This document shows, piece after piece, positions 21,123 to 54,230 of a stretch of 64,000 nucleotides of DNA. The stretch is from Verrucomicrobiota bacterium (GTDB lineage: Bacteria; Verrucomicrobiota; Verrucomicrobiia; Chthoniobacterales; UBA10450), in NCBI GenBank assembly GCA_003219695.1, contig QHQA01000014.1:1-64000 (forward strand), written 5' to 3'. The notes beneath the pieces are model-generated. The model made no database searches. It saw only the letters and a list, made by a program, of their open reading frames with translations, and was not told the origin of the DNA. The position numbers and the translations under genes are program-made. How positions within the stretch are numbered: the first letter of the stretch is position 1; each line of letters starts with the position of its first letter.

Positions 21123-21605
21123 GTGCCGGATCGAAAACAAAATTTGCCGCAACTTTATCGCTTTTGTTTCTTGATGCTGGGCGACTTGGGCCGGGCGCAG
21201 GAGGTTTTCCACACCACATTGCGCGAAGCGGCTGTGCGCGCCGCCCACGGAGAACTACCAAAGGAGTCATTTTGGCTTTTCCGCGACGCGCGCTGGCGCT
21301 GTTTGGAAGCAAGCGAAACGGATTTGCAACCGGAGCCGCTAGATATGGACGAGCATGAGATCACTCCAGAGGCTGCGGCACAGATTCAACAGCTGGAGCC
21401 TGCGCAACTGGCAATTTGGATTTCCGCCGCGCCTGATCCTCAGAGGACCGCACTGGCACTTTTTTATCTCGACGAATTCGATCACCGCGAAATTCTCGAT
21501 ATCGCCGAACTCAAGTTGACCGAGCTTTCGCGCTTCCTGGCAAAGGGCCGGCGACAGTTGCAGGCATGGCTGGACGCAAAAGTTCCTGAACCGCCCCGTG
21601 TATGA
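21123..21605 (+). CDS. Divergent ECF-type sigma factor-like protein
   Basis: 160 residues from GTG 21123, chosen because GGGGAAG lies about ten bases upstream; an upstream in-frame ATG at 21066 is not supported by any such site. The first part (LYRFCFLMLGDLGRAQEVFHTTLRE) resembles sigma region 2.1-2.2, where extracytoplasmic-function factors have a YR...GD..DAEDL helix. The C-terminal part (DPQRTALALFYLDEFDHREILDIAELKLTELSRFLAKGRRQLQ, seen as separate helices) resembles region 4.1-4.2. Region 2.4 is poorly conserved. It overlaps the next gene by four bases (ATGA), as sigma/anti-sigma pairs often do. Confidence 0.6.
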   Translation: MPDRKQNLPQLYRFCFLMLGDLGRAQEVFHTTLREAAVRAAHGELPKESFWLFRDARWRCLEASETDLQPEPLDMDEHEITPEAAAQIQQLEPAQLAIWISAAPDPQRTALALFYLDEFDHREILDIAELKLTELSRFLAKGRRQLQAWLDAKVPEPPRV

Positions 21606-22375
21606 AGACGCTACCGTTCTTGCGCCGGCAACGCGCTCTTTTGAATTGCGCGCCGATCACCGAGGACCGGTTTGCCGACCGTTCCATGCGCTCGGCGGTC
21701 TCTCGTGCAGACGGCTCCGACGAATTTGTCAATCAACAGAACTTCGATCGTGCGGTCGCTGCGTTGGTTCGGCTGGTTCCTATTCCGCCGGAGTCGGCAG
21801 AATGGTTTCCGGACAAAGACCTGATTCGCGGTTCGAAGTGGAATTGGAAAAAGATGGCGCGTAATCCGGCTGTTCTTTCGATCAGCATCGCTGTTGCGGT
21901 CATTGCCGGCGTGTTCGTGTTTCAACTGATTAGCCGTCTAAATGATTTTCCCGGTTCAGCTACGGCTAGGAAATTGTTGACCGTGGCTGCGTCCACCCGG
22001 CCGGTCATGCTCGATCCGGTCAGCACTGAAGCAGGTACATTGAGCGATTTGTTTTTTATGAAAAACGGGCTGGAACATTACGATGTACCAGCTGAATTCG
22101 CCGATTTTCGCACAATCGGCTGTCGCGTCTTTGAAGACGAGGAGTCACGTCGCATCGCGCAAATCTGGCTTGTCGAAAAACGGATCCAGCTTTTCCTGTT
22201 CCCGGCAGAGCGGAACACAAAAACCGGCGCGGTACTGGGGTTTCCCGGCTGGCGCTATGTGCATCAGGAAGGCTGGACGGGTACAGTAACCGAGCACAGC
22301 GGCGTCTGCTTCATGGCTGCGCTGCGGGGCAGTGAAAAAGATCTGGTGCCGTATATTGCGAATGCCAAAGAGTAG
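21602..22375 (+). CDS. Membrane protein, candidate anti-sigma partner
   Basis: 257 residues. A cytoplasmic N-terminal region of about 95 residues, one membrane helix (AVLSISIAVAVIAGVFVFQLI) and a periplasmic C-terminal domain of about 140 residues are visible. Its start codon overlaps the stop of the sigma-like gene, implying translational coupling. This topology is that of anti-sigma regulators. The N-terminal region lacks the HxxxCxxC zinc motif of ZAS-type anti-sigma factors, so the assignment rests on position and topology. The periplasmic part has no family I recognise. Confidence 0.55.
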   Translation: MKTLPFLRRQRALLNCAPITEDRFADRSMRSAVSRADGSDEFVNQQNFDRAVAALVRLVPIPPESAEWFPDKDLIRGSKWNWKKMARNPAVLSISIAVAVIAGVFVFQLISRLNDFPGSATARKLLTVAASTRPVMLDPVSTEAGTLSDLFFMKNGLEHYDVPAEFADFRTIGCRVFEDEESRRIAQIWLVEKRIQLFLFPAERNTKTGAVLGFPGWRYVHQEGWTGTVTEHSGVCFMAALRGSEKDLVPYIANAKE

Positions 22376-22516
22376 AAACTCTTCCTCTTAATCTTAATCT
22401 TCTTCTTACTCTTGTCGTCAGTCGGCAGAGAGTGAGACTAAGAGAAAGACTCGCTCGTGGCGCTTGCTACATTGACAGTCCACATCACGGGATTGACCAT
22501 TCTTGCCGCCGATTTC

Positions 22517-22567
22517 GCCAGGGTAGCTCAGTGGTAGAGCAGCCCCGAAAGCTTTCGGGGTTGGTCG
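22517..22567 (+). pseudogene. 5' fragment of a tRNA-Met-like gene with palindromic anticodon arm
   Basis: Bases 22517-22542 are identical to the first 26 bases of the intact tRNA-Met at 22606. Where the intact gene has a 15-base anticodon arm, this copy has the 18-base palindrome CCCCGAAAGCTTTCGGGG (22543-22560), then rejoins tRNA sequence for TTGGTCG. The T arm and 3' acceptor strand are missing here but are found at 22959-22982. It cannot decode any codon as it stands. Confidence 0.8.
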
Positions 22568-22605
22568 TTCGGGAGAAATTCGCTAGCTTTGTGCGCGAAA
22601 CAAAC

Positions 22606-22677
22606 GCCAGGGTAGCTCAGTGGTAGAGCAGGGGACTCATAAGCCCTTGGTCGGGAGTTCGAATCTCCCCCCTGGCA
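22606..22677 (+). tRNA. tRNA-Met (anticodon CAT)
   Basis: A complete cloverleaf: acceptor GCCAGGG paired with CCCTGGC at 22670-22676, discriminator A at 22677, D stem GCTC/GAGC, anticodon loop CTCATAA with anticodon CAT, and T arm GGGAG-TTCGAAT-CTCCC. CCA is not encoded. The acceptor pair G1-C72 is fully base paired, which argues for elongator methionine or an Ile2-type tRNA rather than an initiator. An A-G mismatch closes the anticodon loop, as in many CAT tRNAs of this type. Confidence 0.93.
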
Positions 22678-22685
22678 TTCCGATT

Positions 22686-22928
22686 ATGGCTTGGGTTTAC
22701 ATTCTGCGCGGGTGCTCAAATCGGCATTACATTGGTTCCGCGGTAGATTTAGATGCACGATTGGCGCAGCACCGACGTGGACATACGCACACAACGAAAC
22801 GACTAGGCGAAAAGCTCGAGCTCGTCGCAAGTAAACATGTCGAAACACTCGATGAGGCGCGGCGCACCGAGCGAATGTTAGAAGCCAAGAAGAATCCACA
22901 GCTTGCCATTTATTATTTGCAACAGTAG
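22686..22928 (+). CDS. Small GIY-YIG nuclease family protein
   Basis: 80 residues from ATG 22686, nine bases after the tRNA. The single domain has [19 protein letters not shown] (the GIY and YIG strands as VYI and YIG), the catalytic-type arginine in DARLAQH and the metal-binding glutamate in [11 protein letters not shown]. It belongs to the standalone UvrC N-terminal-like group (YhbQ type), whose role is unclear; some members cut branched or damaged DNA. Its stop codon TAG is part of the downstream tRNA fragment (gTAGagcag), so gene and tRNA remnant are fused end to end. Confidence 0.85.
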
Positions 22929-22982
22929 AGCAGCCCCGAAAGCTTTCGGGGTTGGTCGGGAGTTCGAATCTCCCTCCTGGCA
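22925..22982 (+). pseudogene. 3' fragment of a tRNA-Met-like gene with palindromic anticodon arm
   Basis: Starts inside the D arm (GTAGAGCAG), carries the same palindrome CCCCGAAAGCTTTCGGGG at 22934-22951, then TTGGTCG and a T arm and acceptor strand that match the intact tRNA except for one base (TCCTGGC against CCCTGGC, still able to pair as G-U). Its first 34 bases are identical to 22534-22567, making a direct repeat around the tRNA-Met and GIY-YIG genes. Confidence 0.8.
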
Positions 22983-53390: not shown

Positions 53391-54230
53391 ATGAGGAGAT
53401 TTCTCGCGGCTTGTTTCAGTTTGGCGATTGCTGCCGCCCCGAAAGCTTTCGGGGATGAACAATCCACTTCTCCTTACGCGACTGCGGCGGATTTTGCCAA
53501 GTACGCAATGAAGCTGCGTGAGCAGGCATTGCTCAAAGTGGAACCGCAGGTTTTTATCCCTACCAGTTCCCACCCGGCGATACAGCGTTACCCGTGGAAA
53601 ATGAGTATTGTGACCACGGTGTTTTGGGTTGGCGAACAGGCCGGAGGCAACAATCCAGTGCCAAACTACAGGAGTTCGTGGGACTTGAATTGGTCGGACA
53701 ACTACGGCGGAACCGATAATCCTGATCCGAGCTCACGGCGCAATTACATTCCAATCGCTTTCGTCCCGCATCAAAATCCCTTCTACTGCGCGTTGCCGTA
53801 CAACGATGTCACGCACGGCCAGTTCAAACCGGAAGCGCCGCTGGTGATTCCCTGGTTCAAACAAACCTACACTGCGCCGGGGCAATCGGTGTGTCGCCAC
53901 CACTGGGTGGCCATTCGCAAAGGTAATCGCACTTGTTATGCGCAATGGGAGGATTGCGGCCCATTCCGCACAGATCATTTCCAATACGTCTTTGGAAACG
54001 AGCGCCCCAAGCCGAACCTGAACCATGGGGCCGGGCTGGATGTTTCGCCGGCCGTGCGCGATTACCTGGGACTGGCGCCGACTGACGTGACTGACTGGCA
54101 ATTTGTCGAAGTCCGTGACGTGCCCCCCGGTCCGTGGCGAAGCTACGGCGAAAACAATCACTTCGTCATTGCGCGCCGCCAGAGCGAGCAGAAGCTGGCA
54201 GCGGGCGGCACAGGCGCCGCGAAAAAGTAG
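53391..54230 (+). CDS. Secreted protein of unknown function, possible DPBB-like fold
   Basis: 279 residues. A signal peptide (FLAACFSLAIAAAPKAFG) is followed by a mature domain with many Trp, Pro and Asn residues and four or more cysteines. The C-terminal GAGLDVSPAVRDYLGLAPTDVTDWQFV resembles the DVSPAxRDxLG segment of RlpA-like double-psi beta-barrels. The substrate could be peptidoglycan, but this is weak evidence. The end of the signal peptide is encoded by the 18-base palindrome at 53437-53454. Confidence 0.55.
   Translation: MRRFLAACFSLAIAAAPKAFGDEQSTSPYATAADFAKYAMKLREQALLKVEPQVFIPTSSHPAIQRYPWKMSIVTTVFWVGEQAGGNNPVPNYRSSWDLNWSDNYGGTDNPDPSSRRNYIPIAFVPHQNPFYCALPYNDVTHGQFKPEAPLVIPWFKQTYTAPGQSVCRHHWVAIRKGNRTCYAQWEDCGPFRTDHFQYVFGNERPKPNLNHGAGLDVSPAVRDYLGLAPTDVTDWQFVEVRDVPPGPWRSYGENNHFVIARRQSEQKLAAGGTGAAKK
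53437..53454. repeat. 18-bp palindrome CCCCGAAAGCTTTCGGGG in a signal-peptide region
   Basis: A perfect palindrome identical to those inside the broken tRNA copies at 22543-22560 and 22934-22951. Here it codes for the residues PKAFG at the likely signal peptidase site. Confidence 0.85.

Follow-up and report, generated by a model that had tools for sequence, protein, structure and literature searches.

The split tRNA-Met locus at positions 22517-22982 of the 64,000-nt stretch of DNA analysed here (the window) is likely a mobile element, which would enter tRNA genes by nuclease-induced recombination and keep its host alive by the tRNA that it brings along. The window belongs to a draft genome of 3.14 Mb in 224 contigs, which is 93% complete. 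A selfish element is likely because close relatives lack the insert, because the tree of the nuclease is unlike that of a neighbouring protein and because the new tRNA differs from the broken one in some relatives. On the available analyses, the most likely reading is a minimal mobile element, which would work like the phage nuclease SegB, supplemented by a rescue tRNA. At the level of sequence, this reading can draw on a split gene with hairpins at both breakpoints, a single intact inner copy, empty sites, conflicting trees and an inner tRNA of foreign type in the related genome G016, and we infer that the predicted nuclease cuts tRNA genes.

The tRNA-Met gene consists of two halves, which are separated at the anticodon arm by an insert of ~0.4 kb containing an intact tRNA-Met and an 80-residue GIY-YIG ORF; all features are located on the forward strand. 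The outer 5' half (22517..22542) is identical to the inner tRNA over 26 of 26 nt and is followed by the left hairpin, CCCCGAA-AGCT-TTCGGGG (22543..22560). The right hairpin has the same sequence (22934..22951) and precedes the outer 3' half (22952..22982), which differs from the inner copy at one of 31 nt. In both outer pieces, the hairpin substitutes for the anticodon stem-loop. The two pieces share an exact 34-bp direct repeat (22534..22567 and 22925..22958, spacing 391 bp), comprising the end of the D-arm, the hairpin and TTGGTCG. A spacer of 38 nt (22568..22605), which is similar in the left-only relatives G071 and G077, connects the left piece to the intact tRNA-Met (cat; 22606..22677; Rfam tRNA, 69.4 bits), the likely rescue copy, besides which no further copy of this tRNA was found in the draft genome. 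After a gap of 8 nt follows the GIY-YIG ORF (22686..22928; Pfam PF01541, E 2.3e-10), a predicted nuclease gene whose TAG stop codon falls inside the right repeat. An earlier note on this DNA had described the intact tRNA with the nuclease gene directly 3' of it, the perfect repeats and the shared stop codon; ARAGORN, Rfam and Pfam agree on the first, and the other two are confirmed. Upstream lies a likely -35 box, TTGACA (22472..22477), presumably part of the tRNA promoter, which is kept in all nine aligned sequences including the window. The locus is bordered by two conserved neighbour genes, an upstream gene termed UP (21602..22375), which encodes 257 aa without a Pfam family, and a downstream gene of the lipase maturation factor family (PF06762; 23066..24592).

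Joining the outer halves gives 75 nt, which RNAfold folds into a cloverleaf-like structure with the long hairpin as anticodon arm. To this extent the earlier note's palindromic tRNA is real; however, it was also taken as the pre-existing target of the insertion, and this part has to be given up, since the empty sites of relatives are ordinary tRNA genes without palindrome. The palindrome therefore came with the insertion or was made by it. An uninterrupted palindrome tRNA as empty site was found at none of the family loci viewed. When the whole 466 nt are folded, the left hairpin pairs with the right one; such long-range pairing was rejected, as the two hairpins of a tRNA-Thr locus differ from each other and each keeps its own stem. 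The 34-bp identity is unlikely to be an assembly duplication, as the layout recurs in many assemblies, one of which is a single contig of 5.96 Mb.

The ORF product can be assigned to the GIY-YIG superfamily based on a PF01541 match over the cut-off, conserved residues and the fold of its model. Y5, Y15, R25 and E62, which we take to be the catalytic residues of the GIY-YIG active site, are invariant in the two alignments. The model (pLDDT 92) depicts a bare GIY-YIG domain, whose nearest solved structures are UPF0213, UvrC and Slx1, at a weak best Foldseek E-value of 4.8e-3; the protein folded alone gave a poor model. Of 30 ORFs, 20 are intact, and the median pN/pS of 0.27 (Met) and 0.29 (Lys) suggests that the function is kept where the ORF is intact. 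Profile searches yielded 2101 relatives at E ≤1e-3 among 4446 candidates. A phage origin was considered and dropped, as viral contigs contained one weak match with 39% identity.

A search for the unit in related genomes, as proposed in the earlier note, revealed that the layout recurs widely and that empty sites exist. The window protein has matches at E ≤1e-3 in 54 of the 83 family genomes, and of the 29 loci taken from other genomes, each genome being represented by its best place, 28 have a same-strand tRNA gene by the ORF (17 Met and 11 Lys). In named genomes, a scan that overlaps with the family set returned 40 loci, mostly from Chthoniobacterales, 'Spartobacteria' and Verrucomicrobia MAGs. 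Further records belong to Opitutaceae, one is labelled Alphaproteobacteria, two are Akkermansiaceae/Verrucomicrobiae, and one each stems from Patescibacteria, Kerfeldbacteria and Gottesmanbacteria, the latter two presumably being members of the Patescibacteria. A tRNA gene lies within ~130 nt at 37 of the 40 loci; the others are L068, which is without tRNA, and the Akkermansiaceae/Verrucomicrobiae loci L088 and L089, GIY fragments located 265 nt after a tmRNA gene. The record labelled Alphaproteobacteria (L060, Lake Pavin) has a tRNA-Met-GIY pair without hairpin halves and may reflect a mislabelled bin or a transfer. The order is reversed in the three Patescibacteria-type records, where the ORF stands before the intact tRNA; hairpin-bearing outer pieces are present nonetheless, most clearly in L083 and L087. 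Within the phylum sample, 51 of 387 genomes have matches at E ≤1e-8; 21 of the 27 new loci (best places) have a tRNA gene within ~350 nt of the GIY ORF, and six are without. At least one hairpin-armed tRNA half is present at 24 of 35 tRNA-linked loci (the 21 new ones and 14 others) and none at 11. In all, about a dozen kinds of tRNA gene show this layout, most cases being from Verrucomicrobiota, next to the three Patescibacteria-type records. Among the tRNAs with CAU anticodon, the elongator tRNA-Met, a second CAU tRNA and an initiator-like CAU tRNA, the last identified by eye, are hit; the other kinds are Lys, Pro-UGG, Pro-CGG, Gly-UCC, Gly-CCC, Thr, Glu, Asn and, by inspection, Arg-CCU, the Glu, Asn and Gly-UCC cases being one-sided and weaker.

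The genome of the window contains 12 PF01541 matches. Five of these stand 8-114 nt 3' of a same-strand tRNA gene, namely tRNA-Met (window), Pro-tgg, Pro-cgg, Val-cac and Gly-gcc, whereas no tRNA was found in the fetched loci of the other seven. The Pro-tgg and Pro-cgg loci have the same right-hand structure as the Met locus with a different hairpin, GTCGCCRCGGCGAC, and a 3' half that matches the tRNA of the respective locus exactly over 30 and 32 bp, and the hairpin detector revealed no hairpin half at the Val-cac and Gly-gcc loci. With up to three mismatches, CCCCGAAAGCTTTCGGGG is expected 0.03 times in the window and was observed three times, twice at the locus and once at 53437; in the whole genome, its 16-nt core is found 21 times. 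By eye, the third exact CCCCGAAAGCTTTCGGGG (53437-53454) lies near the start of a signal peptide-like ORF. Four loci of the same genome (L008, L009, L010 and L019) carry GIY-YIG genes or remnants that are not beside tRNAs and are flanked, as judged by eye, by inverted REP-like sequences, GAGCGAAG.. / ..CTTCGCTC, with GTCAT and ATGAC ends, providing a second link of small GIY-YIG genes to palindromes.

The elongator tRNA-Met core is present in one copy in each family genome having it, except for G012 with two exact copies at one locus; the extra match in G003-G005 and the sole match in G008 are two-mismatch matches to the other CAU tRNA. tRNA-Lys is single-copy in all 68 genomes with a match. 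Flanked by the same neighbours throughout, the Met locus occurs as plain tRNA, as full element, as a right-only form consisting of ORF, hairpin and 3' half, and as a left-only form consisting of 5' half, hairpin and spacer. Using the strict detector on loci with enough flank, neither GIY nor a hairpin half was detected at 37 of 65 Met and 45 of 63 Lys loci, the latter including at least two (G066, G075) with decayed left pieces; 12 further Met/Lys loci were set aside for short flanks, and the 72 'Met' loci include G008, which is matched only at the other CAU tRNA. A fixed vertical order without empty sites, which the earlier note had named as evidence against mobility, is therefore not what is found. 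Hairpin-armed halves are present at 28 of 35 GIY-positive compared to 11 of 93 GIY-negative Met and Lys loci, and the detector overlooks decayed copies, leaving seven of the 35 GIY-positive loci without a match. Its threshold is a stem of 5, which shuffled contexts reach in 10-26% of cases (stem 6 in 2-8%; four contexts), and single weak hairpin matches may thus be due to chance. The left copies viewed stop in or before the T arm, except those of L231/L232, which extend further and, by eye, could pair 5 bp of the acceptor. The tRNA-Met is inverted relative to the upstream neighbour at the Met loci of G003, G005, G012, G017, G025, G027, G044, G050, G065, G068, G070, G074, G076 and G080; these loci are occupied and empty alike, and several have one neighbour only in the fetched stretch. 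The contig of L037/L068 contains a left-only tRNA-Lys and, at ~20 kb from it (G040:C12:170499-170779), a GIY ORF, a hairpin and a tRNA-Lys 3' half; this is a rearranged element.

Phylogenetic trees were calculated for 30 ORFs whose start and hairpin could be located (14 Met, 16 Lys) and for the neighbour protein of 13 of the 14 Met rows. The nucleases of Met loci and those of Lys loci each form a clade of their own. Five Met ORFs of genus g1 are scattered in the nuclease tree, and monophyly of the g1 nucleases is rejected (AU p 0.0038, lnL difference 35); in the tree of the neighbour protein from these loci, g1 forms one group (98/96). The ORF of the window clusters with genus g5 (91/84). Present and absent alleles at one site and horizontal spread of the nuclease gene, both features of a free-standing homing endonuclease element, are observed.

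Further evidence for horizontal movement comes from the tRNA alleles. Seven g5 genomes have a tRNA-Lys without GIY; six of these (G009, G012, G014, G015, G017 and G018) carry allele type A, and the seventh, G019, which is element-free at tRNA-Lys, has a type-B-like allele. In G013 and G016, type-A outer halves surround a type-B-like inner tRNA-Lys, which by eye is nearest to alleles of genus g6. G017 is the empty counterpart of G016; its tRNA-Lys is plain and native, and its flanks are 84% (994 nt) and 90% (1004 nt) identical to those of G016. A donor of the G016 inner tRNA was not found. In the best tree, the ORFs of G013, G016 and G011 (g5 Lys) group together with a support of 49/79, so that an origin of the G016 ORF in another genus cannot be read from the tree; judging from the sequences, the tRNA alleles speak for a foreign source at G013 and G016, but the tree does not. 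In G041, in which no ORF was found, the outer 3' half corresponds to the genus allele and the inner one differs. At most other loci, inner and outer 3' halves agree, which suggests that local origin or gene conversion is also at work. A broken host tRNA gene and an element-borne tRNA in its place are seen in the single inner copy and the foreign-type inner tRNA, and the host presumably uses the inner tRNA. The proposal of a compact mobile module, already made in the earlier note, is supported by the empty sites, the conflict between the trees and the foreign-type inner tRNA in native halves. At L169 (G013), the 3' part of a native tRNA-Lys, including the anticodon arm and followed by native flank, occurs a second time ~1.3 kb after the inner tRNA-Lys; the ~0.9 kb of unknown DNA in front of it may stem from an old insertion of the integrase type.

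How could such a unit move? The nuclease would break the DNA in or near a tRNA gene, and repair from incoming DNA, steered by the tRNA halves, would copy the unit in. Formally, a single exchange with a 391-bp unit (hairpin-TTGGTCG-spacer-tRNA-ORF-GTAGAGCAG) could yield the observed layout: if this unit were circular or tandem and recombined once with the anticodon arm of a tRNA gene, the product would have the 34-bp repeats at a spacing of 391 bp. The inner tRNA would take over from the broken gene. Later recombination between the repeated tRNA halves could lead to the loss of the left piece or of the ORF, or to tandem amplification of units, and the right-only, left-only and tandem forms seen match such deletion and amplification; the one-sided forms could also result from exchange in one half. 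The ORF would decay afterwards. Tandem forms are found in G187, the single contig of 5.96 Mb, in which three units of 318-319 bp, each in the order ORF, TAGAGCAG, hairpin and 3' half, stand behind a tRNA-Arg, and at the tRNA-Thr locus, where the tRNA is flanked by two left units of 95 bp and three right units of ~350 bp. In G001, two different ORFs are stacked behind one tRNA-Lys, suggestive of one element inserted into the tRNA of a second one. Immunity of the resident copy by an altered inner tRNA was considered, and no sign of it was seen: the inner tRNA-Met alleles of the nine GIY-positive g1 genomes are all among the alleles of the 20 GIY-negative ones, and a nuclease that reads tRNA sequence should therefore also cut the resident copy. 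The sharing of these alleles by resident and empty sites speaks against a simple homing model; the resident allele may be resistant through changed flanks. The hairpin may be the true substrate, or merely a dispersed repeat that was picked up at the junction.

It is possible, albeit not the reading that we favour, that the same mobile element moves by a different cut, in which the nuclease would cleave the extruded end hairpins and free the unit, and tRNA homology alone would steer it to the next tRNA gene. Hairpins are present at both ends, and their sequence varies by lineage while the stem is kept (CCCCGAA/TTCGGGG, CCCCGAC/GTCGGGG, TCCCGC/GCGGGA, CTCCGG/CCGGAG); at the tRNA-Thr locus, the left hairpin and the right one have different outer stem pairs, both bases being changed. 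Slx1-type GIY-YIG enzymes cleave branched DNA, and Slx1 is among the best fold matches; moreover, immunity of the inner tRNA would be unnecessary. The exact hairpin is missing from 12 family genomes, all of which lack a strong GIY match (remnants occur in G033 and G019). However, the hairpin is found in 71 of the 83 family genomes (reversed control, 0 matches), also in genomes without GIY, where a structure-specific cutter would hit those sites too, and the Foldseek E-values are weak. Outside of tRNA elements, the 32 GIY-positive family genomes have a median of 6.5 hairpin copies and the 51 GIY-negative ones of 4 (p 0.004), in a comparison that ignores kinship and for which elements and GIY state were entered by hand. 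Within genus g1, hairpin number does not depend on GIY (p 0.30), and a dispersal of hairpins driven by GIY dose was rejected.

A further, improbable reading is a module acting at the RNA level, in which the protein would act on tRNA or pre-tRNA as anticodon nuclease or processing factor and the hairpin-armed halves would be decoys or regulators. Such a role would fit the ORF start 8 nt past the tRNA, which places the acceptor stem where a ribosome-binding site would be expected, and the fold of the outer halves with an extended arm; in addition, a GIY-YIG/TrmH fusion has been linked to RNA in one study (PMC1564403). The nearest solved relatives, however, include DNA nucleases, patchy insertion and horizontal transfer better suit a DNA element, and left-only and right-only forms persist alone. 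Similarly improbable is a local tandem duplication of the tRNA with decayed outer copies and a vertically inherited bystander GIY-YIG gene, which would agree with the syntenic locus, with the element in several relatives of one clade and with the greater likeness of inner and outer Met 3' halves within genomes (23.2 of 25 nt) than between them (21.8; rows partly doubled per genome), but not with the empty sites in close relatives, the conflicting trees, the foreign-type inner tRNA, the G016/G017 pair (barring an assembly error) and the hairpin-armed layout at about a dozen tRNA kinds and in Patescibacteria-type records.

A mobile, tRNA-replacing element of the kind favoured here resembles several known systems. 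Group I introns with GIY-YIG homing endonucleases occur in tRNA anticodon loops and share with the insert the position at the anticodon arm and the GIY-YIG ORF; unlike in these introns, Rfam at gathering threshold found only the tRNA in the window and no intron match, self-splicing group I intron structure thus being absent from the insert at this threshold, and the split gene is not needed, as an intact tRNA lies within the insert. REP sequences with RAYT transposases likewise consist of a small ORF between hairpins that are also dispersed in the genome; here, the one ORF given to Pfam is GIY-YIG, no RAYT tyrosine transposase was found between the hairpins, and the hairpins sit within tRNA halves. 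SegB of T-even phages is a free-standing GIY-YIG homing endonuclease in a tRNA gene cluster (PMC13096335; PMC2988022), whose cleavage peaks inside tRNA genes and whose cuts amplify the tRNA-segB unit (PMC13096335). The excerpted text thus describes a GIY-YIG gene beside tRNA genes without intron and tandem tRNA-nuclease units formed by recombination, as seen here; unlike here, SegB sits between phage tRNA genes, and no split tRNA, tRNA halves or end hairpins are named for it in these excerpts. How SegB spares its own genome is an open question according to the same excerpts (PMC13096335). The element studied here further differs in its 80-aa ORF, its location in bacterial chromosomes, the many tRNA kinds and the own tRNA pieces of each unit. 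By our own reading, the SegB motif RAWTSGAAC is the reverse complement of the T-loop consensus GTTCSAWTY; this motif is present in both tRNA copies, and its eight matches in the window are at chance level. In the tRNA-dependent lysogeny of actinobacteriophages, integration breaks an essential host tRNA gene and an incoming tRNA of the same isotype replaces it (PMC10865867). Broken host gene and element-borne replacement are common to both, but there a whole phage integrates by a tyrosine integrase, whereas the unit here measures ~0.4 kb and has a GIY-YIG gene and junction hairpins; the insert contains no site-specific integrase, for which 391 bp would be too short.

Thus, tRNA-breaking integration with replacement is already known from actinobacteriophages, and free-standing GIY-YIG genes at tRNA genes are known from T-even phages; no description of their union in a hairpin-ended bacterial unit of 0.4 kb was found among the literature matches listed, a set with most subscription papers and all preprints outside its scope. 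On balance, we consider it probable that these loci represent a new class of bacterial mobile elements of 0.3-0.4 kb with hairpin ends, which split an essential single-copy tRNA gene and replace it by the donor tRNA at about a dozen tRNA kinds in Verrucomicrobiota and Patescibacteria. Such an element would be a natural 'cleave-and-rescue' system that makes its host dependent, and perhaps the smallest autonomous one with its own nuclease.

Engineered home-and-rescue gene drives exist. If the proposed reading is true, the element would be their natural counterpart, a selfish nuclease that replaces an essential gene and, in one and the same step, makes itself indispensable. The element would also explain the many small GIY-YIG genes beside tRNA genes in these genomes and provide one cause for both split tRNA relics and the replacement of tRNA alleles between lineages. 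Finally, it would offer a tiny, testable system for studying how such nucleases spare their own genome.
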